Shown: one piece after another, positions 14,506-24,794 of the stretch | Layout: every line of letters starts with the position of its first letter | Numbering within the stretch: position 1 is the stretch's first letter | From: a virus | Virus record (IMG/VR): IMGVR_UViG_3300034021_000548 | Span: 1-30,053 of that record | Reading direction: 5' to 3' (one strand) | Length of the DNA: 30,053 bases | Translations under genes and position numbers: made by a program | The notes under the pieces: generated by a model | The model's database searches: none | What the model was told of the DNA's origin: nothing | The model's input: the letters and a program-made list of their open reading frames with translations, nothing else

Positions 14506-14715
14506 TTAGGAGTTGATACCAAATCTATCATCATTTGGGTCAAGTGCAGTTAAAATCAAAGGAACTATTGAAGCGATTCCTGCTGATATAAAAGTGCGTG
14601 CATCAGAAAAATCAACGGCAAAGATATCTGCACCGTTAGATAGGAAAAGTCCTAATACGGTTGCTAGAAAAACTTTTACGTAAGATTTAATTGCATTGAA
14701 ATATTGTGTTGTCAT
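14506..14715 (-). CDS. Holin (internal start within the HNH-holin ORF)
   Basis: The 69-residue product starts at MTTQYFNAIKSYVKVFLATV. It has two hydrophobic segments, about 12-26 (VKVFLATVLGLFLSN) and 43-57 (ISAGIASIVPLILTA), separated by a short acidic stretch (GADIFAVDFSDA), with a polar acidic tail (DPNDDRFGINS). The pattern FLAT-x-LGL...F...SAGIAS-x-VP-x-L...-x-DP-x-D-x-RFG is that of small two-span actinophage holins. These form membrane lesions and release the endolysin at a set time. The start is fixed by GAGGAGGTGAAC directly upstream, the best Shine-Dalgarno in the window. It lies about 8 kb from the endolysin, on the opposite strand. Confidence 0.75.
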   Translation of the reverse strand: MTTQYFNAIKSYVKVFLATVLGLFLSNGADIFAVDFSDARTFISAGIASIVPLILTALDPNDDRFGINS

Positions 14716-15024
14716 GTTCACCTCCTCTGTATGTGGACATATATTATTGTTTACTCTTTTACCGTGATTACAAGTTGCACATAAGATTTGATAACGGTGC
14801 TTTGGCCAGTAACCGAGTTGCCGATATTCGGCACGAACTAGACGGTATGTAGGATTATTTTTATTGGCTCTGCGATGTGCAGTGCCTCCTCCATCAATGT
14901 GGTCAAAACAAAGTGACCATATCCGAGCATCACCACAGCACTTACATACAGGTTTGCCGTCCGCTATACCTGTTAGTGCTTCTAGACGATACTTGGCTCT
15001 TTTTTGTGCATCGGATAAAGGCAT
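14506..15024 (-). CDS. HNH-like endonuclease ORF fused in frame to a holin domain
   Basis: The 172-residue ORF runs from the ATG at 15024 (MPLSDAQKRAKYRLEAL), placed by the GCAC element; a GTG start at 15054 adds ten residues. Residues about 25-90 have a zinc/HNH-type arrangement: CKCCGD (27-32), LCFDHIDGGG (38-47) with a DH pair, GYWPKHRYQILCATCNHGKR (71-90) with CxxCNH. This resembles phage recombination-endonuclease or HNH nicking enzymes. From residue 104 the same frame, with no stop, is a holin (see 14506-14715). The coding bases for EEV at the junction are themselves a near-perfect Shine-Dalgarno. Either a true fusion or one ORF yielding two products by internal initiation is possible. 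Confidence 0.65.
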   Translation of the reverse strand: MPLSDAQKRAKYRLEALTGIADGKPVCKCCGDARIWSLCFDHIDGGGTAHRRANKNNPTYRLVRAEYRQLGYWPKHRYQILCATCNHGKRVNNNICPHTEEVNMTTQYFNAIKSYVKVFLATVLGLFLSNGADIFAVDFSDARTFISAGIASIVPLILTALDPNDDRFGINS

Positions 15025-15052
15025 ATCAAAAGAAGTGCATATGGGTGGGGAC
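15025..15052 (-). promoter_or_regulatory. GTnnCC-N8-GCAC-N10-ATG start element (HNH-holin, minus strand)
   Basis: Read on the minus strand, GTCCCC (15052-15047), eight bases, GCAC (15038-15035), ten bases, ATG at 15024. There is no Shine-Dalgarno. It is arranged head to head with the element of the methyltransferase gene. Confidence 0.55.
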
Positions 15053-15076
15053 ACACACCGCCAGCACGCAGGAATA

Positions 15077-15104
15077 GTAACCAGTGGTATGCACTTTTAT
15101 AATT
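15077..15104 (+). promoter_or_regulatory. GTnnCC-N8-GCAC-N10-ATG start element (methyltransferase)
   Basis: GTAACC (15077-15082), eight bases, GCAC (15091-15094), ten bases including TATAAT, ATG at 15105. There is no Shine-Dalgarno. This fixes the methyltransferase start at 15105 rather than 15084. Confidence 0.6.
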
Positions 15105-16052
15105 ATGAAGCATGGAAGTTTATTTAGTGGCATAGGTGGATTTGATTTGGCTGCTGATGCATGTGGAATAAAAAGTGTTTGGCAGTGTGAACTAGATGCT
15201 AAAAATAGAAGTATATTAAAAAAGCATTGGCCTGATGCAAGGAGATATGTTGACATTACTGATGTGCATGGAAGTATGTTAGGGTTTGTTGATGTAATAT
15301 CTTTCGGGTCACCTTGTCAAGATTTATCTGTTGCGGGAAAAGGAAAAGGTATAGAAGCTTATCGCTCCGGATTATTTTATCAGGCGACAAGAGTAATTGA
15401 AGAAATGCTAGAAGCAAGTAATGGTATGTATCCAGGATTTGCTATATGGGAAAATGTAAAAGGAAGTTTAACATCTAATGGGGGGAATGATTTTGAAAAA
15501 GTATTGCAAGAGATGGAGAGAATCGGGGCAAAGGATATCGCATGGAGAGTACTTAACGCCAGCGAATTTGGAGTACCACAAAGAAGAGAGCGGGTATTCT
15601 TGGTCGCAGATTTTAGAGGAGAATGTGCCGGAAAAATATTATTTAGAAAAATTAAACAGAGAAGGGATATTGGAAAGGGGACAGAGAAAAAACAAGAAGT
15701 TACCAAAGAGCTTAGAGAAGGCACTCAAGAAAAAATAAAAGTATTTGTAAAGAGTAGGCGTGCACATAGCAACGAAGATTATGAAACTTGGTTAGAGAAT
15801 AAATTATGTCCGACATTAAATGTATTTGATAATGCTAATGAGATTTATGCAACAGTTTTAATTGTTGATGAGATTGGTGTTAGAAAATTAACACCTTTAG
15901 AGTGTGAGAGATTAATGGGGTATCCTGATAATCATACATTAGATGAAGCGGTAACAGAATATACACGATATAGGATGTGCGGGAACGGAGTTGCTACGCC
16001 AGTCGCAAAATGGGTGCTTTTAGGCGTAAAAAAATATTTAAAAAATATTTAA
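15105..16052 (+). CDS. DNA (cytosine-5) methyltransferase
   Basis: The 315-residue protein transfers a methyl group from S-adenosylmethionine to carbon 5 of cytosine. The key motifs are in order: I GSLFSGIGGFD (4-14), IV SFGSPCQDLS with catalytic C71, VI WENVKG (115-120), VIII FGVPQRRERVFLVADF (155-170), a short target-recognition region (about 180-255), IX LTPLECERLMGYPD (262-275), X GNGVATPVAKWV (293-304). It appears complete. It could protect phage DNA against restriction and, more interestingly, supply 5-methylcytosine to the TET/JBP-like dioxygenase at 20921-21802. It diverges from the holin gene, and both share the GCAC start element. The target site cannot be read from sequence. Confidence 0.93.
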   Translation: MKHGSLFSGIGGFDLAADACGIKSVWQCELDAKNRSILKKHWPDARRYVDITDVHGSMLGFVDVISFGSPCQDLSVAGKGKGIEAYRSGLFYQATRVIEEMLEASNGMYPGFAIWENVKGSLTSNGGNDFEKVLQEMERIGAKDIAWRVLNASEFGVPQRRERVFLVADFRGECAGKILFRKIKQRRDIGKGTEKKQEVTKELREGTQEKIKVFVKSRRAHSNEDYETWLENKLCPTLNVFDNANEIYATVLIVDEIGVRKLTPLECERLMGYPDNHTLDEAVTEYTRYRMCGNGVATPVAKWVLLGVKKYLKNI

Positions 16053-16073
16053 AAAAAGTACCTAACCTTCAAG

Positions 16074-16141
16074 CATTTTGTGCATTAGCACGGATAGTTA
16101 ATAGTATCAAGTAAACGTCAATACTTGAAAGGAGAAATAAA
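16074..16141 (+). promoter_or_regulatory. Leader/promoter of the 16142 gene with inverted repeat
   Basis: TTGTGC-N18-TAGTAT (16078-16107) resembles a sigma-70 promoter and contains CGGATAGTTAATA (16091-16103). TCAAGTA-N8-TACTTGA (16107-16128) is a perfect 7-bp inverted repeat around AACGTCAA, followed by AAAGGAG and ATG 16142. It shares about 70 bases of layout with the leader at 17217-17297, including AACCTTC upstream. Confidence 0.6.
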
Positions 16142-16507
16142 ATGGGAATAGAAATAGGAACTACTTTAACAGTAGGGTTTAATGCAAGTAGTTACAGATC
16201 TTTAAAAATTATATTAAACGATTCAAATGCTTTATTATTTTTTAACGATACTGAAAGAAGTGCTCAAGTTAAGAAGGATGTAGAAATTATTAATAGAGAT
16301 ATTATGCTTACAATATTAAAGAATCATGGTTATGATCACGACCGTGATGCATTTATTGAAATTGATTTTAGTGCAGAAGGAATTGCAAAGTTAGATTGTT
16401 TGTTACAAAATTATGAAATGCATTTTCCTTTTTTTGTAGAAGAATCAATAAGAACCCAACGTGTTAATTTAGTATACAGAGATTTACATAAGGCAGGTTA
16501 CAGATAA
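16142..16507 (+). CDS. Unknown acidic protein
   Basis: The 121-residue protein has a strong AAAGGAGAAATAAA ribosome site. It begins MGIEIGTTLTVGFNASSYRSLK and looks like a compact alpha/beta domain, with predicted strands (LKIILNDSNALLFF), acidic helices (SAQVKKDVEIINRDIMLTIL) and a C-terminal IRTQRVNLVYRDLHKAGYR. There is no membrane span, cysteine cluster or catalytic motif. It is not recognised. It heads a four-gene operon of small proteins ending at the terminator at 17142, and its leader is shared with the metallohydrolase gene, which suggests co-regulation. Confidence 0.65.
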   Translation: MGIEIGTTLTVGFNASSYRSLKIILNDSNALLFFNDTERSAQVKKDVEIINRDIMLTILKNHGYDHDRDAFIEIDFSAEGIAKLDCLLQNYEMHFPFFVEESIRTQRVNLVYRDLHKAGYR

Positions 16508-16854
16508 TGAAAATAAAATCCGTAAACAAGGCAGGTGTCAGTGCTACTGGCACCTGCTATACAGGAACTATAAGTGTAACAAAAAACGAATTAGAGTTAG
16601 TGCTTGGAAATCCAGTTGAGTTGTATAGAGATATTGACTACTCTGATGGTAAAACGAACTTTCAGTGGATTGTAGAACTTAGCGATGGTAGCATTGCAAC
16701 AGTGTATGATTGGAAGGAAGATTTTATTGTTGATGATGTGACAGAGATTAATTGGCATATTGGTGGAAGAAAAAGTAATTATGAAATGTTTAAAAACTTA
16801 TTAGAAGATTCTATAACCCAAGCTTTACAAAAAAGAAAAGGAGTAAGACGATGA
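16507..16854 (+). CDS. Unknown acidic protein, hairpin at its 5' end
   Basis: The 115-residue protein starts at an ATG overlapping the previous stop (TAATG). Its strand-rich sequence (VELYRDIDYSDGKTNFQWIVELSDGSIATVYDWKED) resembles a small SH3-like or beta-barrel domain, followed by helices (NYEMFKNLLEDSITQALQKR). It is not recognised. A 12-bp hairpin (16531-16557) is embedded in codons 9-17 and could tune translation. Confidence 0.6.
   Translation: MKIKSVNKAGVSATGTCYTGTISVTKNELELVLGNPVELYRDIDYSDGKTNFQWIVELSDGSIATVYDWKEDFIVDDVTEINWHIGGRKSNYEMFKNLLEDSITQALQKRKGVRR
16531..16557 (+). promoter_or_regulatory. 12-bp hairpin just inside the 16507 gene
   Basis: GCAGGTGTCAGT (16531-16542), loop GCT, ACTGGCACCTGC (16546-16557). 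In RNA all 12 pairs form, one of them G-U. There is no T-run after it. As DNA it is a near-perfect palindrome that could also be an operator. Confidence 0.6.
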
Positions 16855-16964
16855 GTAGATTTGTTATATGTTCAGATTGTAAAAAAGAGATAGAAGTACG
16901 GTGGGGTATATTTGGTCACGATACTCTTAGCCGTCATAGTAAAGAATGCAAAGGGGGTAAGTAA
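16851..16964 (+). CDS. Tiny zinc-finger-like protein
   Basis: The 37-residue product MSRFVICSDCKKEIEVRWG... has C7-x2-C10 and later H-x3-C (H29, C33), which could make a single C2HC zinc site. GGAG precedes the start, which overlaps the previous stop (ATGA). It is not recognised, but the metal-site spacing, good ribosome site and operon packing support a real gene. Confidence 0.55.
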   Translation: MSRFVICSDCKKEIEVRWGIFGHDTLSRHSKECKGGK

Positions 16965-17099
16965 ATGGAACTATCAGAAGATCAGATTGTTGCTATCCTT
17001 GAAGGATATGGATGCGATTATGAAGAGACAGAGAAGATTGTTCAAGAGATTCGCAAAGGCGATTGGCGGTCACTTGAACGTAAAATGTTGACTGAGTGA
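16965..17099 (+). CDS. Tiny acidic helical protein
   Basis: The 44-residue product MELSEDQIVAILEGYGCDYE... starts immediately after the previous stop, with GGGGGTAAGTAA as a ribosome site. The sequence is mostly helical and acidic (ETEKIVQEIRKGDWRSLERKML). It is not recognised. It is the last gene before the terminator at 17142-17172. Confidence 0.5.
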   Translation: MELSEDQIVAILEGYGCDYEETEKIVQEIRKGDWRSLERKMLTE

Positions 17100-17141
17100 A
17101 TGCTCTCCTTTAAAAAAGAGTAACTCAGTTGACTGACGGGG

Positions 17142-17176
17142 AAGACCACTAGCGTAAAAAACTAGTGGTCTTTCTA
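17142..17176 (+). terminator. Intrinsic terminator after the small-gene operon
   Basis: An 11-bp perfect stem, AAGACCACTAG / CTAGTGGTCTT, has a 9-base loop (CGTAAAAAA) followed by TTCTAAT. It ends the 16142-17099 operon. Confidence 0.85.
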
Positions 17177-17202
17177 ATTATATGATAAAATAGTTTTAAT
17201 TA

Positions 17203-17297
17203 ACAAAAAGAGTTTTTTAACCTTCGGGCTTTTTGTAAACAATAACGGACAATTAATAGTATAGGTGAAACCGTCAATCACTTAAAGGAGAAATAAA
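17203..17297 (+). promoter_or_regulatory. Leader/promoter of the metallohydrolase gene with UUCG hairpin and inverted repeat
   Basis: ACAAAAAG...CTTTTTGT (17203-17236) encloses CC-TTCG-GG. TTGTAA-N18-TAGTAT (17233-17262) resembles a promoter and contains CGGACAATTAATA (17246-17258). TAGGTGA-N9-TCACTTA (17262-17284) is a 7-bp inverted repeat (one G-U if RNA) around AACCGTCAA, followed by AAAGGAG and ATG 17298. It is the sister of the element at 16074-16141. Confidence 0.6.
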
Positions 17298-17837
17298 ATG
17301 AAAGATACACAAAGGTCAAAAGTATATCGGGCAGAGAACACTAGTACTGTTAAAATAAATACAAATGATATGACACTATTAGAATGCGAGGAACTTATAA
17401 ATAAGTTGCAGAAAAAGTATATGAAAGTTATTACAAATAAGATTACAGTAGAGTGTTTGCGAGAATCAAAAATGGCATACTATAGTTCTCAGGAAATAAA
17501 GATTAGTTTACCATCTTGGTCAAGAAATAGATATAATATATTACACGAATTTGCACATTACTTAACAGATATGATTAGGCTACAATTTCAACCACGATTC
17601 GGTTATAGTCATAAAGTAAAAATTAAGTTACCAAAAAATATTCATGAAGTATGCAAAACAGATAGCAATTATTTTTCAGGTCATGGTCCAGTTTTTACAT
17701 ACGTGTTGTTAATGCTTGTTAGAAAAGAGTTAGGAGCAATACAATATGAGAAGTTAAAGAACAGTATGTATTGGTATAACGTTAAAAGTATAAACAGTGC
17801 AGGTAAGGTAGTTAAGATAAGAGCTTCAAAAGAATAA
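17298..17837 (+). CDS. HExxH metallohydrolase of an actinobacterial family (TIGR04338-like)
   Basis: The 179-residue protein opens MKDTQRSKVYRAE, matching the D-x-QRS-x-VY-x-AE opening I recall for the actinobacterial putative metallohydrolase family TIGR04338. The zinc site is ILHEFAHYL (81-89; H83, E84, H87), with a third ligand likely in SGHGPVFTYVL (127-137; H129). There is no signal peptide or span, so it is cytoplasmic. The substrate is unknown; the zincin fold suggests peptidase or SprT/ImmA-like activity. It has its own leader and is followed by a terminator, so it is a single-gene unit sharing regulation with 16142. Transfer from an actinobacterial host is plausible. Confidence 0.75.
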   Translation: MKDTQRSKVYRAENTSTVKINTNDMTLLECEELINKLQKKYMKVITNKITVECLRESKMAYYSSQEIKISLPSWSRNRYNILHEFAHYLTDMIRLQFQPRFGYSHKVKIKLPKNIHEVCKTDSNYFSGHGPVFTYVLLMLVRKELGAIQYEKLKNSMYWYNVKSINSAGKVVKIRASKE

Positions 17838-17851
17838 AAAAGCTTTTTTAG

Positions 17852-17882
17852 ATACCGTCAGAGAAGTCTGGCGGTATTTTTA
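17852..17882. terminator. Intrinsic terminator between convergent genes
   Basis: ATACCGTCAGA / TCTGGCGGTAT form an 11-bp stem (one G-U), with loop GAAG followed by TTTTTATTT. It separates the metallohydrolase gene from the minus-strand zinc-ribbon operon. Confidence 0.85.
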
Positions 17883-18065
17883 TTTGTCGTTTTTATCTGA
17901 GGAATAAAACCCACCACCTTTAAAGATTGCATTGACAGGATTAAAAGTACGTTGGGCTGGTTGATTACATTTACCACACTTGACCTCTAAATCGCGGTCA
18001 TCTATCTTACGAGTATAGGTTGTGGTTTCATTACATAGCATACAGCGGTAATCATAGTCTGGCAT
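17880..18065 (-). CDS. FmdB-family zinc-ribbon protein
   Basis: The 61-residue protein runs from the ATG at 18065 (MPDYDYRC), with AGAGGATAAC as ribosome site. An upstream start at 18101 lacks this. The layout is that of the FmdB/CxxC_CxxC family: MP-x-Y-x-Y-x-C, CxxC at 8-11 and 30-33, then AIFKGGGFYSSD near the C-terminus. These small regulatory-type zinc ribbons are common in bacteria and phages and their biochemical role is mostly unknown. It is the last gene of a four-gene leftward operon and overlaps the terminator by a few bases at its stop. Confidence 0.82.
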   Translation of the reverse strand: MPDYDYRCMLCNETTTYTRKIDDRDLEVKCGKCNQPAQRTFNPVNAIFKGGGFYSSDKNDK

Positions 18066-18067
18066 AG

Positions 18068-18334
18068 TTATCCTCTCATTGTTTGTATACAGGCAGGGCA
18101 AATAGATAATTCAAATAGGTCGTCTGTGCGCTTATCGCCACAGTTAGGACAGGTATGTGCGTGCTTAGACATATCATCTCTACATTGCTGGCAGAGTGCA
18201 TCTCGGATGGCGATGCGACCTATGTCTGCACCACAACATCTACACGCATCGTGATTGGTGGCGGAACATGTACAGATGTGACCAAAGGCGCAACACACGA
18301 TTATGACCTGACTTTGCGTGGTCTTTTCCACCAC
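18068..18334 (-). CDS. Multi-zinc-ribbon small protein
   Basis: The 88-residue protein is dense in CxxC pairs: C31/C33/C34, C48-x2-C51, C62-x2-C65 and C79-x2-C82. It probably binds two zincs and mediates nucleic-acid or protein contacts. The start is uncertain: GTG at 18334 or 18331, both weak, overlapping the upstream gene by about 30 bases. It is spaced two bases from the FmdB-like gene. It is not recognised as a named family. Confidence 0.6.
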   Translation of the reverse strand: MVEKTTQSQVIIVCCAFGHICTCSATNHDACRCCGADIGRIAIRDALCQQCRDDMSKHAHTCPNCGDKRTDDLFELSICPACIQTMRG

Positions 18335-18495
18335 TCAGATTGTTTTAGGTCTGATGCGGGGATACGTACGGTTATGGTTGGATTATCTATTTGATATAGA
18401 AGAACAAGGTCGCCAGTTGCTTTGTCTGTGTAACGGGCTGCTAAGGTATGTGTATTAGTATTAGGTGGATACCTTCTAGGCTTTCTCTGTTTCAA
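18301..18495 (-). CDS. Small basic protein of unknown function
   Basis: The product is 64 residues if it starts at TTG 18495, which has AAAGGTAAGC upstream. An ATG-free extension of the frame to 18612 would overlap the HTH gene by 137 bases and is less likely. It begins with a basic segment (KQRKPRRYPPN) and has strands LAARYTDKATGDLVLLYQID and TITVRIPASDL, then a basic end (SEWWKRPRKVRS). It could be a small DNA- or RNA-binding protein. It is not recognised. Confidence 0.5.
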   Translation of the reverse strand: MKQRKPRRYPPNTNTHTLAARYTDKATGDLVLLYQIDNPTITVRIPASDLKQSEWWKRPRKVRS

Positions 18496-18742
18496 TTTGC
18501 TTACCTTTCTTTTGTTGGAATCTGCGGGATTGACCTGCTGGTCGGAGTAACTCACGTAAGGCTCCTTCAGTGATACCGATTCTATCGGCTGACTTACGGA
18601 GAGATAGACCATTCTTTTGCCAGTCTGTTACGGCTATGCGGATAGCGTGACGGTAATTGGCTGCTGATTGTTCTGATGCGGCTCTAGCGGTATGCATGGA
18701 TGCTCTGGCTAGAAGTATGTTGTTGTATAGGTTATCATCCAT
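18476..18742 (-). CDS. Helix-turn-helix DNA-binding protein
   Basis: The 88-residue protein has an N-terminal helical, alanine-rich segment (ILLARASMHTARAASEQSAA). The HTH GLSLRKSADRIGITEGALRELL (45-66) has the form S-x-R-x-x-A-x-x-x-G-I-T-E-x-x-L-x-x-L. The tail is basic (RRFQQKKGKQ). It heads the leftward operon. There is no Shine-Dalgarno, but the GTAACC-N8-GCAC-N10 element precedes the ATG. It is the best candidate here for a repressor or operator-binding regulator, perhaps acting on the adjacent palindromic region; no CI-like repressor is seen elsewhere in the window. Confidence 0.68.
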   Translation of the reverse strand: MDDNLYNNILLARASMHTARAASEQSAANYRHAIRIAVTDWQKNGLSLRKSADRIGITEGALRELLRPAGQSRRFQQKKGKQIETEKA

Positions 18743-18770
18743 AGTAAATACTGTGCGTACCTGTGGTTAC
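18743..18770 (-). promoter_or_regulatory. GTnnCC-N8-GCAC-N10-ATG start element (HTH gene, minus strand)
   Basis: On the minus strand, GTAACC (18770-18765), eight bases, GCAC (18756-18753), AGTATTTACT, then ATG at 18742. There is no Shine-Dalgarno. It matches the methyltransferase element in both blocks and spacing. Confidence 0.6.
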
Positions 18771-19115
18771 ACCGCACACACATTTAATAGAGATTAGGGG
18801 GAGAGAGCGCCCCCCACACGCACCATTTGGGAATGTGTGGGAACGTCAATAGGGTACTGTACCACTAACACGCACGTGTTCCCATGCGGAGATTCCCACC
18901 TACGTAGGATTGATATTCCCATTCCCGTACCTCTATAGGTACGGGATAGGGAATATGAAGACGGTGGAATCTCAGGGATAAGGGAATAGGAATAGTATTC
19001 CATAGGATAGACTATTGGGAATATATCCACCCCCACCTCAACAAGAATAGACCCTACACAATAAGACACCCCCCATAGATACACCCCCAGCACGCAGAGA
19101 GATAAGGAGTAATGT
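18771..19115. repeat. Non-coding palindrome-rich region with nine or so GGGAAY/RTTCCC repeats; candidate origin, operator cluster or packaging site
   Basis: About 345 bases between divergent genes, with no convincing ORF. GGGAAT, GGGAAC or their complements occur at 18829, 18839, 18878, 18892, 18915, 18921, 18949, 18982 and 19017. Perfect palindromes: GGTACTGTACC (18853-18863), CCTACGTAGG (18899-18908) and GGAAT-AGT-ATTCC (18989-19001). The centre is a 20-base-arm hairpin (18913-18956). An outer pair GAGATTCC(C)ACC / GGTGGAATCTC (18889-18900 and 18963-18973) flanks it. Composition is GC-richer than the surroundings. Confidence 0.65.
18913..18956. repeat. Long inverted repeat (20-base arms, 4-base loop)
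   Basis: ATATTCCCATTCCCGTACCT (18913-18932), loop CTAT, AGGTACGGGATAGGGAATAT (18937-18956). The arms match except for two adjacent bases. There is no T-run, so it is unlikely to be a simple terminator. It is the centre of symmetry of the repeat region. Confidence 0.85.
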
Positions 19116-19143
19116 GCTACCAGCTTTAAGCACAGGTAAAAGT
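19116..19143 (+). promoter_or_regulatory. GCTACC-N8-GCAC-N10-ATG start element (HNH gene)
   Basis: GCTACC (19116-19121), eight bases, GCAC (19130-19133), AGGTAAAAGT, ATG 19144. The 16 bases from GCAC to ATG are almost identical to those before the ParB-like gene at 19606 (one difference). This supports the start at 19144 over the in-frame start at 19114. Confidence 0.55.
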
Positions 19144-19470
19144 ATGCCTAATAAACCACCTCACAGATGCAGGCATCTCGGTTGCTATGAATTAGTTTAT
19201 ACACCTAGATGTTCTGTACACGCTAGAGCGGAAGAGAAGAAGAGAAAAGAAAAAGAAGTATGGAGAGATTATGGAAGTGAGTGGAGAGTTATTAGAGGCA
19301 AGGTATTAAGGGCTGAACCTAATTGTAGAATGTGTGGTCAGAAGGCTACAGATGTAGACCATATAAAGAGTTTAAAAGAAGGTGGAACACATGATATAAG
19401 TAATCTAAGACCTTTATGTAAGAGTTGTCACTCAAGAAGAACCTATTATGATACATTAGGTAAGAAATAA
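19144..19470 (+). CDS. HNH endonuclease (terminase-associated type)
   Basis: The 108-residue protein has the HNH core ATDVDHIKSLKEGGTHDISNL (68-88), with the DH pair (72-73), a conserved N87 and LCKSCHSRRT (91-100). Zinc cysteines C61/C64 (NCRMC) and C92/C95 hold the fold. An extra N-terminal cysteine/histidine group (HRCRHLGC...CSVH) adds a second small zinc site. HNH proteins of this length next to terminase genes take part in specific cleavage of phage DNA at packaging in cos phages. Here the terminase is 3 kb downstream, with modification genes in between. A general nicking role is also possible. Confidence 0.85.
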   Translation: MPNKPPHRCRHLGCYELVYTPRCSVHARAEEKKRKEKEVWRDYGSEWRVIRGKVLRAEPNCRMCGQKATDVDHIKSLKEGGTHDISNLRPLCKSCHSRRTYYDTLGKK

Positions 19471-19601
19471 TGCTATATAAAATAAAAAATAAGGGTAGGG
19501 GGGTTAGGATTATACATAGTTATTATCTTATAACCGCGCCTGAGAGTTGGCGTGCAAAAAGTCAGGTTTTTAGGAATATGTCATTTTCTAGGCACAGGTA
19601 A
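19470..19601 (+). CDS. Possible tiny basic ORF, or non-coding spacer with candidate cos-like sequence
   Basis: An ATG overlaps the HNH stop as TAATG and opens a 43-codon frame (MLYKIKNKGRGVRIIHS...FSRHR) ending just before the ParB-like gene. There is no Shine-Dalgarno, and several AGG codons make it doubtful. The same stretch holds GGGTAGGGGGGTTAGG and a GC-richer patch, CCGCGCCTGAGAGTTGGCG, with inverted repeats CGCC/GGCG and CCTGA/TCAGG (19538-19566). That is the type of sequence seen around cos sites between HNH and terminase genes. Both readings are tentative. Confidence 0.3.
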   Translation: MLYKIKNKGRGVRIIHSYYLITAPESWRAKSQVFRNMSFSRHR

Positions 19602-19605
19602 AGGT
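19592..19605 (+). promoter_or_regulatory. GCAC-N10-ATG start element (first ParB-like gene)
   Basis: GCACAGGTAAAGGT lies directly before ATG 19606 and differs by one base from the sequence before 19144. AGGT within it could act as a weak Shine-Dalgarno. The GTnnCC hexamer is not present at the expected place (ATGTCA). Confidence 0.5.
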
Positions 19606-20286
19606 ATGATAAATAATATACACGAACAGTTAGCAGATTTAGTTGTACCGATAGAGAACCTTGAAGTCCTAGAAGGAAATCCACGTAAGGGTGATGTTGA
19701 GGCTGTTGCAAAAAGTTATAGAACCTTCGGACAAAGAAAACCAGTAGTGGCTAGAAAAACTGGAAGTAATGGCAAAGGAGATATTGGTGTGGTGTTGGCT
19801 GGTAATCATCAACTGAAGGCTGCTCTTGATTTAGGATGGACTGAGATTGCTGTTGTGTTTGTTGAGGATGATGATAAGACTGCTGCTGCTTTTGCACTTG
19901 CGGACAATAGGGTTAGTGATTTGGGAGAATATGATGCGAATGAGTTGAGTCAAGTTTTAGAAGAGATGAAGGCGACTCCGGAATTATTAATTGCTGCAAG
20001 CTTTGATGTTGATGATTTAGGTGCGGCTGTAAAAGATCAAATAGAAATTGATAATATGTCTACAAAAAATGATAAAGAAAATAATAAAAAGAAAAAGTCA
20101 CTTGCTGACATGGCAGATGAATATCAGAATAGAAGTACAAGAACATTTAGAGCGGAGTATCCTTATAATGTTTATAACTGGTTAATTTCCACTTTAGAAA
20201 ATTACAAAGAAGATAAAGGTGTGGAATCAACTACGACTGCTTTTATAGAAGTATTAAAAAATATAGAAGGAGAGAAAAAGAAATGA
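19606..20286 (+). CDS. ParB-like (ParB/sulfiredoxin-fold) protein, first of two paralogues
   Basis: The protein has 226 residues from the ATG at 19606. The ParB-like domain spans about 14-112: VVPIENLEVLEGNPRKGDVE, FGQRKPVV (41-48), AGNHQLKAA (65-73), ALADNR (97-102). The usual ParB box GE[RH]R is changed to GNHQ, so the NTPase/nuclease pocket may be altered. The C-terminal third (SLADMADEYQNRSTRTFRAE, then a helical end) also resembles the next gene. ParB-like proteins with this domain accompany phage DNA-modification and methyltransferase genes; the exact job is unclear (nicking, sequence recognition or CTP-dependent loading). It overlaps the second copy by four bases. Confidence 0.85.
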   Translation: MINNIHEQLADLVVPIENLEVLEGNPRKGDVEAVAKSYRTFGQRKPVVARKTGSNGKGDIGVVLAGNHQLKAALDLGWTEIAVVFVEDDDKTAAAFALADNRVSDLGEYDANELSQVLEEMKATPELLIAASFDVDDLGAAVKDQIEIDNMSTKNDKENNKKKKSLADMADEYQNRSTRTFRAEYPYNVYNWLISTLENYKEDKGVESTTTAFIEVLKNIEGEKKK

Positions 20287-20930
20287 AAGGTAAGTATGCT
20301 GAAGGTTTAGAAAAATTATTAACACCGATTGAAAAAATAGAAATTGCAAAAAGTAATCCTAGGCGTGGAGATATTGATGCGGTTGCAAGAAGTTATAAAA
20401 CATTTGGTCAGAGAAAACCGATAGTAGTCAGGAAAGAGAAAAACGGAAAAGGTACAGCGATTGCCGGTAACCATCAACTGCAGGCTGCTAAAAAATTAGG
20501 ATGGACTCACATTGCTGCGATATGGGTTGAGGAAGATGAGATGGTTAGCAAGGCTTTTGCCTTAGCGGATAATCGTACCCATGATTTAGGAACTTATGAT
20601 ACTGTTGCTTTACTTGCTTTGTTAGAAGAAATAAAGGGGGAAGAAAAGTTATTGGCTGCTAGCGCTTATACGGAAGATGATATGTCAGATTTGGTTGCTA
20701 GTATTGAAGAAGATTCCGAAATTAGTATTGATGATTTACTAGAACTAAACGATAGATTTTCTAAGATGGCATCCAGACAGTTTGTGGTAGAACTTACTAA
20801 CGAAGAGTTTGTATGGGCTCAAAATGTTTTAGAAAAATATAGAGAGAAAATAAAAGTAGAGAACAATGCTTTGGCTTTTGTAAAAGCATTAGAAAAATTA
20901 ACTAGTAAAAGGAGTCCCAAATGGAACTAA
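20283..20930 (+). CDS. ParB-like (ParB/sulfiredoxin-fold) protein, second paralogue
   Basis: The 215-residue protein is a full-length paralogue of the preceding gene. Shared landmarks are SNPRRGDIDAVARSYKTFGQ (24-43), RKPIVVRK, AGNHQLQAA (61-69), ALADNR (93-98) and DLGTYD, with a C-terminal R-x-F-x-x-E...W...LE-x-Y-x-E...VE pattern also in the first. The changed GNHQ box is kept in both, so it is not random decay. It overlaps both neighbours and ends inside the dioxygenase start region. The two copies may form a heterodimer. Confidence 0.85.
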   Translation: MKGKYAEGLEKLLTPIEKIEIAKSNPRRGDIDAVARSYKTFGQRKPIVVRKEKNGKGTAIAGNHQLQAAKKLGWTHIAAIWVEEDEMVSKAFALADNRTHDLGTYDTVALLALLEEIKGEEKLLAASAYTEDDMSDLVASIEEDSEISIDDLLELNDRFSKMASRQFVVELTNEEFVWAQNVLEKYREKIKVENNALAFVKALEKLTSKRSPKWN

Positions 20931-21802
20931 AAATTATAGAGATGAAAAAGGTTATGAGCGCTGATGAGGCAACAAAATTAGTTGGCACATTTGTGAAAAG
21001 TAAAGAAGCAAATTTAACCGAACAATGTGTTGTAATTGATGCGGAAACCAAAGAGCCAGTTATGGCATATCTACCATTGGATAGAGAGATTGTAAAACAG
21101 GTAAGACAGGCTGTACTAGGATTAAAGAGTTGGGGTACGGCTGGTAGGGCTGGTGGATGGGATAGTGCTAGTAGAACTTTTGGTATGGCACCTAGAAAAC
21201 CATTCCATGGTCGTGAAAGTTGCAGACCTACTAGTATGGCAACTGATGAACCAGAGAATCACGCAGTCTTTGTTAGTTTGGCGGAACATCTAGATAAAAT
21301 ATTAAAGCAAATTGCACCTAAGGTATGGCAAGAAGATATGGAAGTTATGGATAGGGTTGCAGATGAATGGAAAATGATGGATGGCTCAACATGGACTAGT
21401 GGTGTTGTAAATAAATCTGCTCAACTACCTTATCATCGTGATGGTTTTAATTTTGAAGTGTGGAGTGGGATGCCAGTTGTACGAAGGGGAATGCGTGGTG
21501 GGTATTTAGACTTACCTGAATACAATATGACTATTGACTGCAAAGATGGATGGGTATTATTTTTTCCCGGATATTTAATTGTACATGGAGTTACACCATT
21601 GGAGCCAGTACAGAAAGATGCATATCGTTTTAGTGTTGTTTATTATTCTTTGAAGGGTATGAAAGATTGTTTTACTTATGCTGTTGAAACTGCTCAAGGA
21701 AGAAAAAAGAGAACAGAACGTGAAAAAGATTTAGCGGATGCTATTGAAGGTAAAAAAGATTTCAAAGTAGGTAATTCAAAGAAAAAGGAAAAAACCAAAT
21801 GA
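20921..21802 (+). CDS. TET/JBP-like 2-oxoglutarate/Fe(II)-dependent DNA base dioxygenase
   Basis: The 293-residue protein has AAAAGGAGTCCCAA upstream. The double-stranded beta-helix core carries LPYHRDGFN (169-177), giving the HxD iron ligands H172 and D174. Next come MRGGYLDLPEYNMTI (191-205), DGWVLFFPGYLIVHGVTP (209-226) with distal ligand H222, and DAYRFSVVYYS (233-243) with R236 for 2-oxoglutarate. The GGYLDLPEY...GDxLFF...HGVTP...YRxSxVxYS string is diagnostic of the TET/JBP group, which oxidises methyl groups on DNA bases. The N-terminal domain includes GRAGGWDSASRTFG. The lysine-rich tail may contact DNA. With a C5-methyltransferase in the same genome, 5-methylcytosine is the likely substrate; thymine oxidation is the alternative. 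Confidence 0.9.
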   Translation: MELKIIEMKKVMSADEATKLVGTFVKSKEANLTEQCVVIDAETKEPVMAYLPLDREIVKQVRQAVLGLKSWGTAGRAGGWDSASRTFGMAPRKPFHGRESCRPTSMATDEPENHAVFVSLAEHLDKILKQIAPKVWQEDMEVMDRVADEWKMMDGSTWTSGVVNKSAQLPYHRDGFNFEVWSGMPVVRRGMRGGYLDLPEYNMTIDCKDGWVLFFPGYLIVHGVTPLEPVQKDAYRFSVVYYSLKGMKDCFTYAVETAQGRKKRTEREKDLADAIEGKKDFKVGNSKKKEKTK

Positions 21803-22758
21803 ACGTAGCTTTATTTTACTTACCCGATGTAAAGTATGGCGGATGGCCGACATACACAGCACACTTATATCACGGACTACTTGATGCTGGTTATAAACCT
21901 ATGCTATTCAAAATCGGAAATAGAACTGAACCAAATACAAGAGCTTGGGGCAGAAAAATAAGATATAAAAATTTATCATTACAGGATGCTGCAAATATTG
22001 CATTAATGATGCCCACAATTATAACGGCAACTAATATGAAGTACGAAAAGGAGACAGAGTTATTGGTAAATGCCGGAGCAAAAGTAGTAATTCACGACCC
22101 GACTGAACTAAAAGGCAGTATTGTTGAAATATTAAAAGATTGCAAAGATGTAATAACTATTAGACCAATTAACGTTATAAATTTAGAGAAAAAAGATATT
22201 GAATCTAGATATGTACCACACCCATACAAAAGATACGCTGGTCGTTTTTATAATAAAAGCAAATGGGCTGCATCTTTTTCAAGGATTGATTGGGACAAAG
22301 GAACACACCATATTGTATCTGCAAATGAAAAACTAGAAAAAAATAAACAAATAGATATATATGGTGCACCAAATAGGTTATACACATTTCATAAATTACC
22401 TAGCGGATGGGAAGAAAAATATTATAAAGGAACATTCACTGCTGACAGTTTATGGGAAGGTGCTAAAATAGCATCAAAATATGAGTGGGCTGTAGATATG
22501 AGTACTATCAGTGGAGATGGTGGTGGAACTCAATACACATTTTTAGAAGCAATTGATGCAAAAGCAGGATTGTTACTAAATAGTGGTTGGATTACAGGTA
22601 GAAACGATGATGAACTATTAGAAAATGCAACATTTGTCAAACCTGAAGAATTACATATGGCGCTAGAGAGTAAACCAAATATTTATGGCACGTCTATTTT
22701 AGAAAAACATAATGCCGCTACAATTGCAAAAAAAACGCTAGGAAAAATAAATGGGTAG
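21799..22758 (+). CDS. GT-B (GT4-like) glycosyltransferase, probably modifying oxidised bases in DNA
   Basis: The 319-residue protein starts at an ATG overlapping the dioxygenase stop (ATGA). The N-terminal Rossmann-like start is MNVALFYLPDVKYGGWPTYT (1-20) with HGLLDAG. The C-terminal domain has FSRIDWDKGTHHIVSA (160-175), IDIYGAP (185-191) and GDGGGTQYTFLEAIDAKAG (239-257), with the conserved E250 that holds the nucleotide sugar, as in GT4 enzymes. The coupling to the TET/JBP-like gene implies transfer of a sugar to the hydroxymethyl base, which would shield DNA from restriction. The sugar donor is unknown; no nucleotide-sugar synthesis gene is in the window, so a host donor is likely. A cell-surface substrate is less likely given the context. 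Confidence 0.8.
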   Translation: MNVALFYLPDVKYGGWPTYTAHLYHGLLDAGYKPMLFKIGNRTEPNTRAWGRKIRYKNLSLQDAANIALMMPTIITATNMKYEKETELLVNAGAKVVIHDPTELKGSIVEILKDCKDVITIRPINVINLEKKDIESRYVPHPYKRYAGRFYNKSKWAASFSRIDWDKGTHHIVSANEKLEKNKQIDIYGAPNRLYTFHKLPSGWEEKYYKGTFTADSLWEGAKIASKYEWAVDMSTISGDGGGTQYTFLEAIDAKAGLLLNSGWITGRNDDELLENATFVKPEELHMALESKPNIYGTSILEKHNAATIAKKTLGKING

Positions 22759-23203
22759 AAGGGGTCCAGCACCATTACCTACACATTTAAAAATTGTTAG
22801 AGGTACGGCACGTCCTGATAGGATGGTAAAGAACGAACCAAAAGCAAAGAGCGGAGTGCCTAGATGTCCAGAATGGTTAAGTGCTGATGCAAAAGAAGTT
22901 TGGAAGAGAACTGTAAAACAATTAAAACAAATGGGTACATTAAGTGTTGCTGATGTTGATTTAATTGCTGCATATTGCAATGCGGTAACCACTTATAAAA
23001 AGGCTACTGATTTAGTTGATAAAAGTGGAGTACTAATAAAAGGTAGAAGAGATGGAGTAGTTACAAATCCTGCAGTTAGAATCCAGAGAGATGCCGCTCA
23101 ACTTATAAGGCAATTGGGTGCTGAGTTTGGGTTATCTCCGTCATCACGAAGTAGAATACAGGTTGATGGAGCGGACAATGACGCAGACGATTTCCTGGAC
23201 TAG
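22751..23203 (+). CDS. Terminase small subunit (P27 family)
   Basis: The 150-residue protein starts MGRRGPAPLPTHLKIVRGTA, with the GRRGPAPxPxxLK opening of P27-type small terminases. CPEWLSADAKEVWKRTVKQL, DVDLIAAYCNAVTTYKKA and NPAVRIQRDAAQLIRQLGAEFGLSPSSRSRI follow, covering the helical oligomerisation region and conserved end. It recognises phage DNA and loads the large subunit. It overlaps the glycosyltransferase end by eight bases and the large terminase start by 26. Confidence 0.93.
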   Translation: MGRRGPAPLPTHLKIVRGTARPDRMVKNEPKAKSGVPRCPEWLSADAKEVWKRTVKQLKQMGTLSVADVDLIAAYCNAVTTYKKATDLVDKSGVLIKGRRDGVVTNPAVRIQRDAAQLIRQLGAEFGLSPSSRSRIQVDGADNDADDFLD

Positions 23204-24794
23204 ACCTGCTCACACCAGTGCTGGATTAAATTTGCCAGAAGGTGCTTACTATGATGAAGATGCTGCTGATAGGGCTGTAAAGTTTTTTGGTTATTTGCAT
23301 TTAGTGGAAGGTAAAGGTGCTGGAGAAAAATGGCAACTTATGCCCTGGATGGAGTTTGAAGTTATAAGACCATTATTCGGATATAAAAGAGCAGACGGAA
23401 CTAGAATGTATCGTACTGTTTGGTTGGAAGTACCGAGAAAAAATGCAAAAACTACATTGGCTGCTGGATTAGCATTGTATGGATTAGTTGCTGATAATGA
23501 ACCTGGTGCTCAGGTTTATATGGGAGCAAGAGATAGAGCACAGGCTAGAATCTGTTTTGAGTTGGCAAGAAAAATGGTTAATGCTTCTCCAGCTTTAAGA
23601 AATAGATGTAGGGCACAAAGGTCATTTATTGAAGTGCCAAAAACTGGAAGTGTTTTAAGAACTATTTCTGGAGATGCTTTAGGTCAACATGGATTCAATG
23701 CTCATATTGCGGTATTGGATGAAGTACACGCACATAAGAACAGAGAGATATGGGATGTTTTATCTTCATCTGTTGGAGCAAGAACTCAACCAATAGTTAT
23801 TGGGATTACGACTGCTGGAACATACGACCCAAATCATATTGCGTGGGAGTTACACGATTATGCGGTAAGGATTGCATCTGAAGAACTTGAAGATTCATCT
23901 TTTTTGGCTGTAATTTATGGAGCAGATATGGAAGATGATTGGACTGACCCTAAGATATGGCATAAAGCAAATCCATCATTAGGAATTACAATTATGCCTA
24001 CATTTTTAGAAGAAGAGATTAGAAAAGCGAAAGCATCTCCGGCTAGGCAGACTACTTTCGCACAATTATATTTAAATAAATGGACTAGGGAAGTATCTCG
24101 CTGGATTGATATGGATGCTTGGCATAGTTGTGGTAAAAAGAAAATTAATATTGAGGATTATAAGGGTAAGCCTTGTTTTGTTGGATTAGATTTATCTTCT
24201 ACAACTGATATTTCTGCTTTAGTGCAAGTATTTATTGAAGATGATGGGAGTTTTACAGCGGTGCCACACTTTTGGTTACCCACTGACGGAATGCCAGAGA
24301 GAGAAAAAAGAGATAGGCAACCTTATAGTAGATGGGCTGAAGAAGGTCATATAACTTTGACACCTGGAAATGTTATTGATTATAGATACATTAGGAGTTA
24401 CATTGAAAAACTTGCTACCGATTTTCATATATTGGAATTGGCTTATGACCCTTGGAATTCTACCCAGTTGGTTGTTGAGTTAGCGGAACAAGGGATGAGA
24501 GTAGCACCTACTCGGCAGGGATTTGCTACTATGAGTGCTCCCACAAAAGAACTAGAGAGATTGATTGTATCGGAAAATATATCCCACGCATCTCATCCTG
24601 TCTTGAGTGCTCACGCTGATGCGGCACTAGTATCTACAGACCCTGCTGGTAACCTAAAGCCAGATAAGGCGAAAAGTACTGCACGTATTGACGGATTGGT
24701 AGCATTAATCATGGCTATCAATAGTGCGATGTTAGCAGGAACTTCACTAACGGGTCGTTCAGTTTATGAGGATAGAGGAGTAGAATTAATATGA
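23178..24794 (+). CDS. Terminase large subunit
   Basis: The protein has 538 residues from the ATG at 23178; GGAG lies six bases upstream, and starts at 23166 or 23118 are less well placed. The ATPase has Walker A VPRKNAKTT (85-93), Walker B IAVLDEVHAH (177-186) and the coupling motif TTAG (211-214). The RNase H-like nuclease has FVGLDLSSTTD (334-344) with D338 and LAYDPWN (421-427) with D424. This is the HK97/Terminase_1 type motor that packages DNA into the prohead and cuts it. Overlap with the small subunit ensures coupled synthesis. Confidence 0.95.
   Translation: MTQTISWTRPAHTSAGLNLPEGAYYDEDAADRAVKFFGYLHLVEGKGAGEKWQLMPWMEFEVIRPLFGYKRADGTRMYRTVWLEVPRKNAKTTLAAGLALYGLVADNEPGAQVYMGARDRAQARICFELARKMVNASPALRNRCRAQRSFIEVPKTGSVLRTISGDALGQHGFNAHIAVLDEVHAHKNREIWDVLSSSVGARTQPIVIGITTAGTYDPNHIAWELHDYAVRIASEELEDSSFLAVIYGADMEDDWTDPKIWHKANPSLGITIMPTFLEEEIRKAKASPARQTTFAQLYLNKWTREVSRWIDMDAWHSCGKKKINIEDYKGKPCFVGLDLSSTTDISALVQVFIEDDGSFTAVPHFWLPTDGMPEREKRDRQPYSRWAEEGHITLTPGNVIDYRYIRSYIEKLATDFHILELAYDPWNSTQLVVELAEQGMRVAPTRQGFATMSAPTKELERLIVSENISHASHPVLSAHADAALVSTDPAGNLKPDKAKSTARIDGLVALIMAINSAMLAGTSLTGRSVYEDRGVELI

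Follow-up and report, generated by a model that had tools for sequence, protein, structure and literature searches.

A phage ParB-TET-glycosyltransferase unit beside the terminase genes, and a predicted route to glycosylated 5-hydroxymethyluracil in DNA

Gene content and organization of the locus

The DNA described here, referred to throughout as the window, is a virus record of 30,053 bases from IMG/VR (IMGVR_UViG_3300034021_000548) with a GC content of approximately 37%, known only as a metagenomic contig. Its plus strand carries tail, replication, serine-integrase, terminase and portal genes, and directly before the terminase genes lies the system in question: two genes for ParB-like proteins, a gene for a dioxygenase of the TET/JBP type, and a gene for a glycosyltransferase (Table 1). 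Overlaps of 4 to 10 bases run end to start through all four genes and into that for the terminase small subunit (TerS), an arrangement that indicates one translationally coupled unit. A first-pass annotation, made from the sequence alone, had assigned these genes, together with a cytosine-5 methyltransferase (C5-MTase) encoded farther upstream, to a single pathway for the modification of cytosine. All of the genes that it named exist, and their boundaries hold apart from the start of the methyltransferase, for which position 15105 is an internal ATG and 15084 the actual start.

Table 1. Genes of the modification unit, the adjoining terminase genes and the upstream methyltransferase
Feature	Position	Strand	Supporting evidence and notes
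ParB-like protein 1 (ParB1; ParB_N / Srx-like fold domain)	19552..20286	+	PF02195 6e-5; phrog_723 2.7e-32
ParB-like protein 2 (ParB2)	20283..20930	+	PF02195 2.2e-8; phrog_723 9e-34; overlaps ParB1 by 4 bases and TET by 10 bases
TET/JBP 2-oxoglutarate (2OG)-Fe(II) dioxygenase, predicted thymine-5-hydroxylase	20921..21802	+	PF12851 6.4e-13; phrog_6059 1e-84; overlaps glycosyltransferase by 4 bases
GT-B/GT4-like glycosyltransferase, predicted 5-hydroxymethyluracil-DNA glycosyltransferase	21799..22758	+	AlphaFold2 and Foldseek; neighbours
Terminase small subunit (landmark adjoining the cassette downstream)	22751..23203	+	phrog_83 4.5e-48
Terminase large subunit (landmark)	23118..24794	+	PF20441 7e-43; PF03354 7e-21
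C5-cytosine methyltransferase, intact; judged an orphan outside the cassette	15084..16052	+	PF00145 5.3e-52; TIGR00675 7e-53

The TET/JBP dioxygenase

The assignment of the dioxygenase to the TET/JBP enzymes, originally proposed from an HxD...H...R pattern, was borne out by a Pfam search, in which it matched the Tet_JBP profile (PF12851) at 48.7 bits against a curated cut-off of 34.9, and by the invariance, in all 82 of 82 non-redundant relatives, of H172, D174 and H222 (the HxD...H iron triad) and of R236, which binds 2OG. Because the profile match is to Tet_JBP, the name attached to the corresponding protein group in PHROGs (PHROG 6059, 'queuine tRNA-ribosyltransferase') was rejected as a misannotation; the same name is given to this TET in many RefSeq mycobacteriophage records, one further record calling it 'DpdA-like'. 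The nearest isolated relatives belong to phages of Rhodococcus, Mycobacterium, Gordonia, Microbacterium and Arthrobacter. The family includes gp2 of phage Nigel, which shares a genus with mycobacteriophage Cooper, whose own gp2 appears alongside TET and JBP in a published alignment (PMC12730594).

At the position eight residues beyond the 2OG-binding arginine (R+8), the window's enzyme has Leu244 where Naegleria Tet1 has a histidine, a difference that fits another pyrimidine contact while not being diagnostic of substrate. A lysine in place of leucine at that position was proposed as a mark of TETs acting on 5-methylcytosine (5mC), two of four such contigs having a C5-MTase. The mark was abandoned once 80 more loci had been fetched, because the Lys-type TETs have the same kinase, ADDT and TAGT cassettes (described below) and only 8 of 57 are accompanied by a C5-MTase. 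A second and very divergent TET clade (loci L139 and L276-L340) includes an enzyme from Caulobacter phage Cr30 (L041:5347-6675) that is annotated as an 'SNF2 DNA repair protein', and carries the same kinase, ADDT, PLP and TAGT cassettes.

The ParB-like proteins

The two overlapping ParB-like genes reported upstream of the dioxygenase were likewise confirmed, both by their matches to phrog_723 and by those to PF02195 (ParB_N), for which ParB2 lies over the cut-off and ParB1 just under it; their products are 42% identical, and both score below the cut-off (58.45 bits) of the full partition-protein model TIGR00180, at 46.9 and 31.5 bits. Among 184 TET loci with enough upstream sequence, a ParB_N protein stands directly 5' of TET in 177, and a tandem pair, which the first-pass annotation had considered unusual, is present in 27 (an isolated example being Arthrobacter phage Kharcho). 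Phage cytosine carboxymethyltransferases, too, often have ParB domains as partners, with a function that is unknown (PMC12783734). The ParB-like proteins of the window are probable partners of TET and may serve in its targeting or loading.

A glycosyltransferase family absent from curated catalogues

The description of the last gene of the unit as a GT4-like glycosyltransferase also proved correct, although its confirmation took structure prediction, as family searches gave nothing: the protein has no Pfam match even at E=10 (PF20691, the TAGT family, included), no NCBIfam model matches it, and none of 51 members of its family matches PHROGs. A search with the single sequence returned an identical contig as the only relative, and the remaining relatives were reached by way of TET neighbourhoods and then by an alignment-based profile search, which recovered 142 stretches in one scan. 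AlphaFold2 gave a pLDDT of 32 from the lone sequence, and a pLDDT of 95 with a pTM of 0.92 when supplied with 51 sequences. The resulting model has a GT-B fold, for which Foldseek returned 286 matches in the PDB at E<=0.001 with GT4 enzymes leading; these enzymes and the DNA alpha-glucosyltransferase of phage T4 matched at E values of about 1e-9 to 1e-8 and TMq values of 0.65-0.67. The T4 enzyme accounts for five entries in the top 30, two of them with DNA containing hydroxymethyluracil (HMU), and matches among viral models include two glycosyltransferases of Bacillus phage SP-15, a thymine-hypermodified phage whose thymine derivative carries glucose (PMC5977210). A profile comparison between the window's family and the T4 enzyme was not significant (hhalign E 0.07), and the relationship is therefore one of fold rather than of membership in the T4 family. 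Across the 51 relatives H99, D100, R162 and K167 are invariant and E250 is nearly so, while the first glutamate of the EX7E motif is absent (Gly242). The window's enzyme thus represents a phage GT-B family that is missing from Pfam, PHROG and NCBIfam.

The genomic neighbours of this family fall into two sets. Within 3 kb of the gene, 30 of 61 non-redundant members have a TET, 22 have HMUDK_hel (PF18723, a 5-hydroxymethyldeoxyuridine (5hmdU) DNA kinase) or PF00303, and none has both; with radical SAM genes counted as well, 55 of the 61 have a neighbour of one of these kinds. The PF00303-like neighbours resemble thymidylate synthase and are presumed to be dUMP hydroxymethylases. A single glycosyltransferase family is found with two different sources, TET and the 5hmdU-pathway genes, and the compound that both can give is 5-hydroxymethyluracil (5hmU). 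GT4-type folds serve many acceptors and acceptor specificity is not readable from the model, so that the enzyme might instead glycosylate a virion protein or the host surface, its place after TET being a mere cargo slot; against this stand the neighbours of those 55 members and the exchange of the enzyme with DNA-base tailoring enzymes in the same slot (see below), which leave such a role very improbable. At four loci (L147, L148, L152 and L184) two sugar-transfer genes adjoin one another, either as two GT-B copies or as GT-B with TAGT, and might produce disaccharides on DNA.

An exchangeable tailoring slot after TET

Comparison of about 200 related loci revealed a constant unit composed of ParB, TET, an exchangeable tailoring cassette and the terminase, and in 68 non-redundant loci the usual order was one or two ParB genes, TET, the tailoring genes, TerS and the terminase large subunit (TerL). 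The cassette may consist of a PF18751 kinase alone; of ADDT (an amino-acid:DNA transferase, PF18724) with an FAD oxidase and a kinase; of ADDT from a second group, accompanied by a PLP-enzyme-like protein and a kinase; of TAGT (TET-associated glycosyltransferase, PF20691), with or without an FkbM methyltransferase; of FkbM alone; of the window's GT-B glycosyltransferase; or of an uncharacterised 308-residue protein that appears GT-B-like by eye.

A tree of 82 non-redundant TETs requires 28 or more changes of cassette. Contig L003 encodes a TET 80% identical to that of the window, and ParB, TerS, TerL and the genes beyond them are retained around it, while a TAGT-like protein (one that clusters with TAGT and has a weak Pfam match) takes the place of the window's GT-B enzyme; in one clade, five close TETs are followed by four different cassettes. 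The parsimonious reading is that the product of TET stays the same while the additions built upon it vary.

Several individual loci add to this picture of variety. In L010 (2635-4004) and related loci, the 308-residue protein, which lacks a Pfam match, is followed by a protein of approximately 148 residues that resembles a HAD phosphatase by eye, and the pair is possibly a second uncatalogued tailoring cassette. In the Arthrobacter phage Altadena (genes 63-64, L038:5915-7263), TET is followed by TAGT and a PIG-L-type GlcNAc deacetylase, which suggests that an N-acetylhexosamine placed on DNA is turned into an amino sugar by deacetylation. Two records look misannotated: gp3 of Mycobacterium phage Nigel (L023:1765-2382), labelled 'terminase small subunit', matches by sequence the PF18751 kinase of Rhodococcus phage Tonitrus, and gp3 of Microbacterium phage Matzah (L035:1595-2179), noted as a 'HicA-like toxin', is by Pfam a PF18751 kinase.

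Thymine or cytosine as the target base

The first-pass annotation had proposed that the phage C5-MTase converts cytosine to 5mC, that TET oxidizes the latter to 5-hydroxymethylcytosine (5hmC), and that the glycosyltransferase then acts upon 5hmC. In favour of that pathway, the methyltransferase gene is intact (its PCQ, ENV and QRRER motifs were all seen) and lies on the same strand 3.5 kb upstream of ParB1, and C5-MTases occur on a few related contigs (L006, L011, L014, L015, L022, L130 and L134). Three other open reading frames (ORFs), a minus-strand stretch and an HNH gene lie between, and the gene is rarely linked to TET elsewhere. No C5-MTase was found in any of 11 complete isolated phage genomes with a TET of the window's kind, nor in any of 66 loci of the Cr30-like clade, in which the cassettes are mostly of thymidine type. 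Two of a further 39 records gave a match (one in a bacterial genome, the other weak and partial). The gene was absent from 42 of 44 contigs bearing the glycosyltransferase, and was present within the fetched region of 15 of 218 TET loci (duplicates and the window itself counted). A 41.6-kb contig with the same ParB-TET-glycosyltransferase order (L125), in which the glycosyltransferase is 63% identical to that of the window, also yielded none. The conserved co-occurrence that a 5mC-type phage TET system would need is not seen in the window's TET family.

The methyltransferase has homologues in 1,546 phage records, the nearest among the matches listed being those of Faecalibacterium phages, a group absent from the TET-bearing records. 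Its nearest solved structure is M.HhaI, and the match is limited to the catalytic half, such that its specificity is not readable. While the gene itself was correctly identified as complete, it is best explained as lying outside the system: it is judged to be an independent orphan phage methyltransferase, and its grouping with the ParB, TET and glycosyltransferase genes looks accidental.

The partners of TET or of the glycosyltransferase relatives, in contrast, include enzymes of thymidine hypermodification (PF18751, PF18724, PF18723 and PF00303). In that chemistry, phosphorylation of 5hmdU within DNA precedes substitution (PMC6449724), and the ParB-TET-ADDT-kinase locus of Tonitrus is a published predicted thymine hypermodification system (PMC11955845). 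The rarity of the C5-MTase, the thymidine-type partners and the neighbours of the glycosyltransferase family together favour thymine and render the cytosine pathway unlikely. The best explanation, considered probable, is that TET generates 5hmU from thymine in DNA, that the adjacent enzyme glycosylates it, and that the C5-MTase is unrelated.

According to this thymine account, phage DNA that has already been replicated would be modified by the products of a late, translationally coupled operon spanning 19552 to 22758. The dioxygenase, paired with one or two ParB-like proteins, is predicted to oxidize the thymine methyl group within DNA, which yields 5hmU; the GT-B enzyme would then move a sugar (of conjectural identity) from a nucleotide-sugar donor onto the hydroxyl of 5hmU, giving a glycosyl-5hmU resembling base J, immediately ahead of packaging by the terminase. 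The enzyme occupies the exchangeable slot where related phages have, variously, TAGT, an FkbM methyltransferase, a different glycosyltransferase-like protein, or a kinase together with an amino-acid:DNA transferase. The earlier suggestion of post-replicative modification beside the terminase is supported, its timing being presumed.

Several points weigh against the thymine account. The window does encode an intact C5-MTase; in the first set of contigs such a gene was present in 6 of 21, a link to TET that is above zero; and many of the compared records are fragments. Phage TETs that oxidize 5mC produced by phage C5-MTases have been reported (Burke 2021, as cited in PMC12730594). TAGT enzymes act on glucosylated 5hmC in T2 and T6 (PMC13216743), and glycosyltransferase cassettes are therefore no proof of thymine. 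The separation between TET and 5hmdU-synthesis genes in the neighbourhoods of the glycosyltransferase amounts to about two switches on its tree, and the probability of zero overlap by chance (9e-10 if the 61 members were independent) therefore overstates the exclusivity. In the accessible papers, no report of thymine hydroxylation by this TET family came to light. The Cr30-like TETs, taken up as a possible positive control, did not prove to be a 5mC-type clade, and the comparison included no biochemically verified 5mC-type phage TET.

A relaxed TET, acting mainly on thymine and also on 5mC from the orphan methyltransferase to give two modified bases in one genome, would accommodate the fact that both genes are intact, and pyrimidine discrimination may differ in this enzyme because Leu244 replaces the histidine of Naegleria Tet1. 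The comparative data carry no signal for it, as the methyltransferase is rare in the family and its position relative to TET is not conserved, and it is regarded as improbable, more so than the cytosine pathway.

Host and other features of the window

The actinobacterial setting previously assumed was upheld in part. A link to Actinomycetota is probable for TET. For the host, the indications are mixed: the relatives of TET, a portal protein 42% identical to those of Arthrobacter phages, and a locus (L044) in a metagenome-assembled genome point to Actinomycetota, the large terminase and the methyltransferase are nearest to those of Firmicutes phages, and the GC content is low for most actinobacteria.

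Elsewhere in the window, the stretch from 17838 to 19113 contains no convincing plus-strand genes, reaches 46% GC, has no Rfam match, and harbors small minus-strand ORFs, of which one (17880-18101) encodes a CxxC zinc-ribbon that is FmdB-like by eye; a 23-nt inverted repeat lies at 18910-18959. On the minus strand at 14506-15054, a 182-residue ORF has an HNH-like N-terminal part and, from an internal methionine, a C-terminal part resembling a small holin-type membrane protein, representing either a fusion or two in-frame genes.

Significance

The system is real, well organised and mostly of a known kind, and a thymine account should replace the cytosine one. While the ParB-TET-tailoring framework is known already, the new elements are a GT-B family, missing from the catalogues, that two routes connect with 5hmU, and the direct replacement of one cassette by another between close relatives; a limited literature search found no later report, which is weak evidence of absence. 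To our knowledge, glycosyl-5hmU has no earlier case in phage. The stronger proposition, that phages make a true analogue of base J, with ParB guiding TET to selected sites of replicated DNA, where it hydroxylates thymine, and with an unnamed GT-B family glycosylating the resulting 5hmU, is considered evenly balanced between being right and wrong.

If true, one glycosyltransferase family would be paired with two unrelated sources of 5hmU (TET, and dUMP hydroxymethylation at the nucleotide level), with the tailoring chemistry serving as a plug-in cassette. The analysis itself shifts the likely target base from cytosine to thymine, with the precise prediction of phage-made glycosyl-5hmU, so far the province of kinetoplastid base J, and the family with its 142 relatives supplies candidate thymine-DNA glycosyltransferases for assays and as tools. 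With seven or more tailoring outcomes, the slot behind TET also makes it directly testable how phage base hypermodification arose and diversified, and whether JBP and TET descend from phages, as has been supposed.

Comparison with known systems

Among the closest known counterparts is the TET family of Cooper gp2 and PHROG 6059, with the ParB-TET-ADDT-kinase cassette of Tonitrus: the two TETs are 46% identical, with the same ParB upstream and the same position on the terminase side, whereas Tonitrus has ADDT, a kinase and an FAD oxidase where the window has a GT-B glycosyltransferase. The phage 5mC TET systems (Burke 2021; Pyle 2024) are alike in combining an enzyme of TET/JBP fold, a glycosyltransferase and a C5-MTase in one phage genome, and differ in that the window's TET family lacks a conserved C5-MTase. 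TAGT (PF20691) occupies the same slot after TET (in L012, L038 and L111, and weakly in L003), while the window's enzyme has no PF20691 match and is instead GT-B/GT4-like.

The T4 DNA alpha-glucosyltransferase and the SP-15 glycosyltransferases, top structural matches that act on or are linked to modified phage DNA bases, share the GT-B fold with the window's enzyme at approximately 10-15% identity. The M6-like thymidine hypermodification clusters (PF00303-like, PF18723 and radical SAM), which are home to the remote half of the glycosyltransferase family, seem to form their 5hmU as a nucleotide, through a presumed dUMP hydroxymethylase rather than with a TET. With the kinetoplastid base J system (JBP1/2 and a glucosyltransferase), finally, the window, in which no JBP DNA-binding domain was seen and no search was aimed at one, shares a predicted logic only: the hydroxylation of thymine in DNA, followed by glycosylation of 5hmU.

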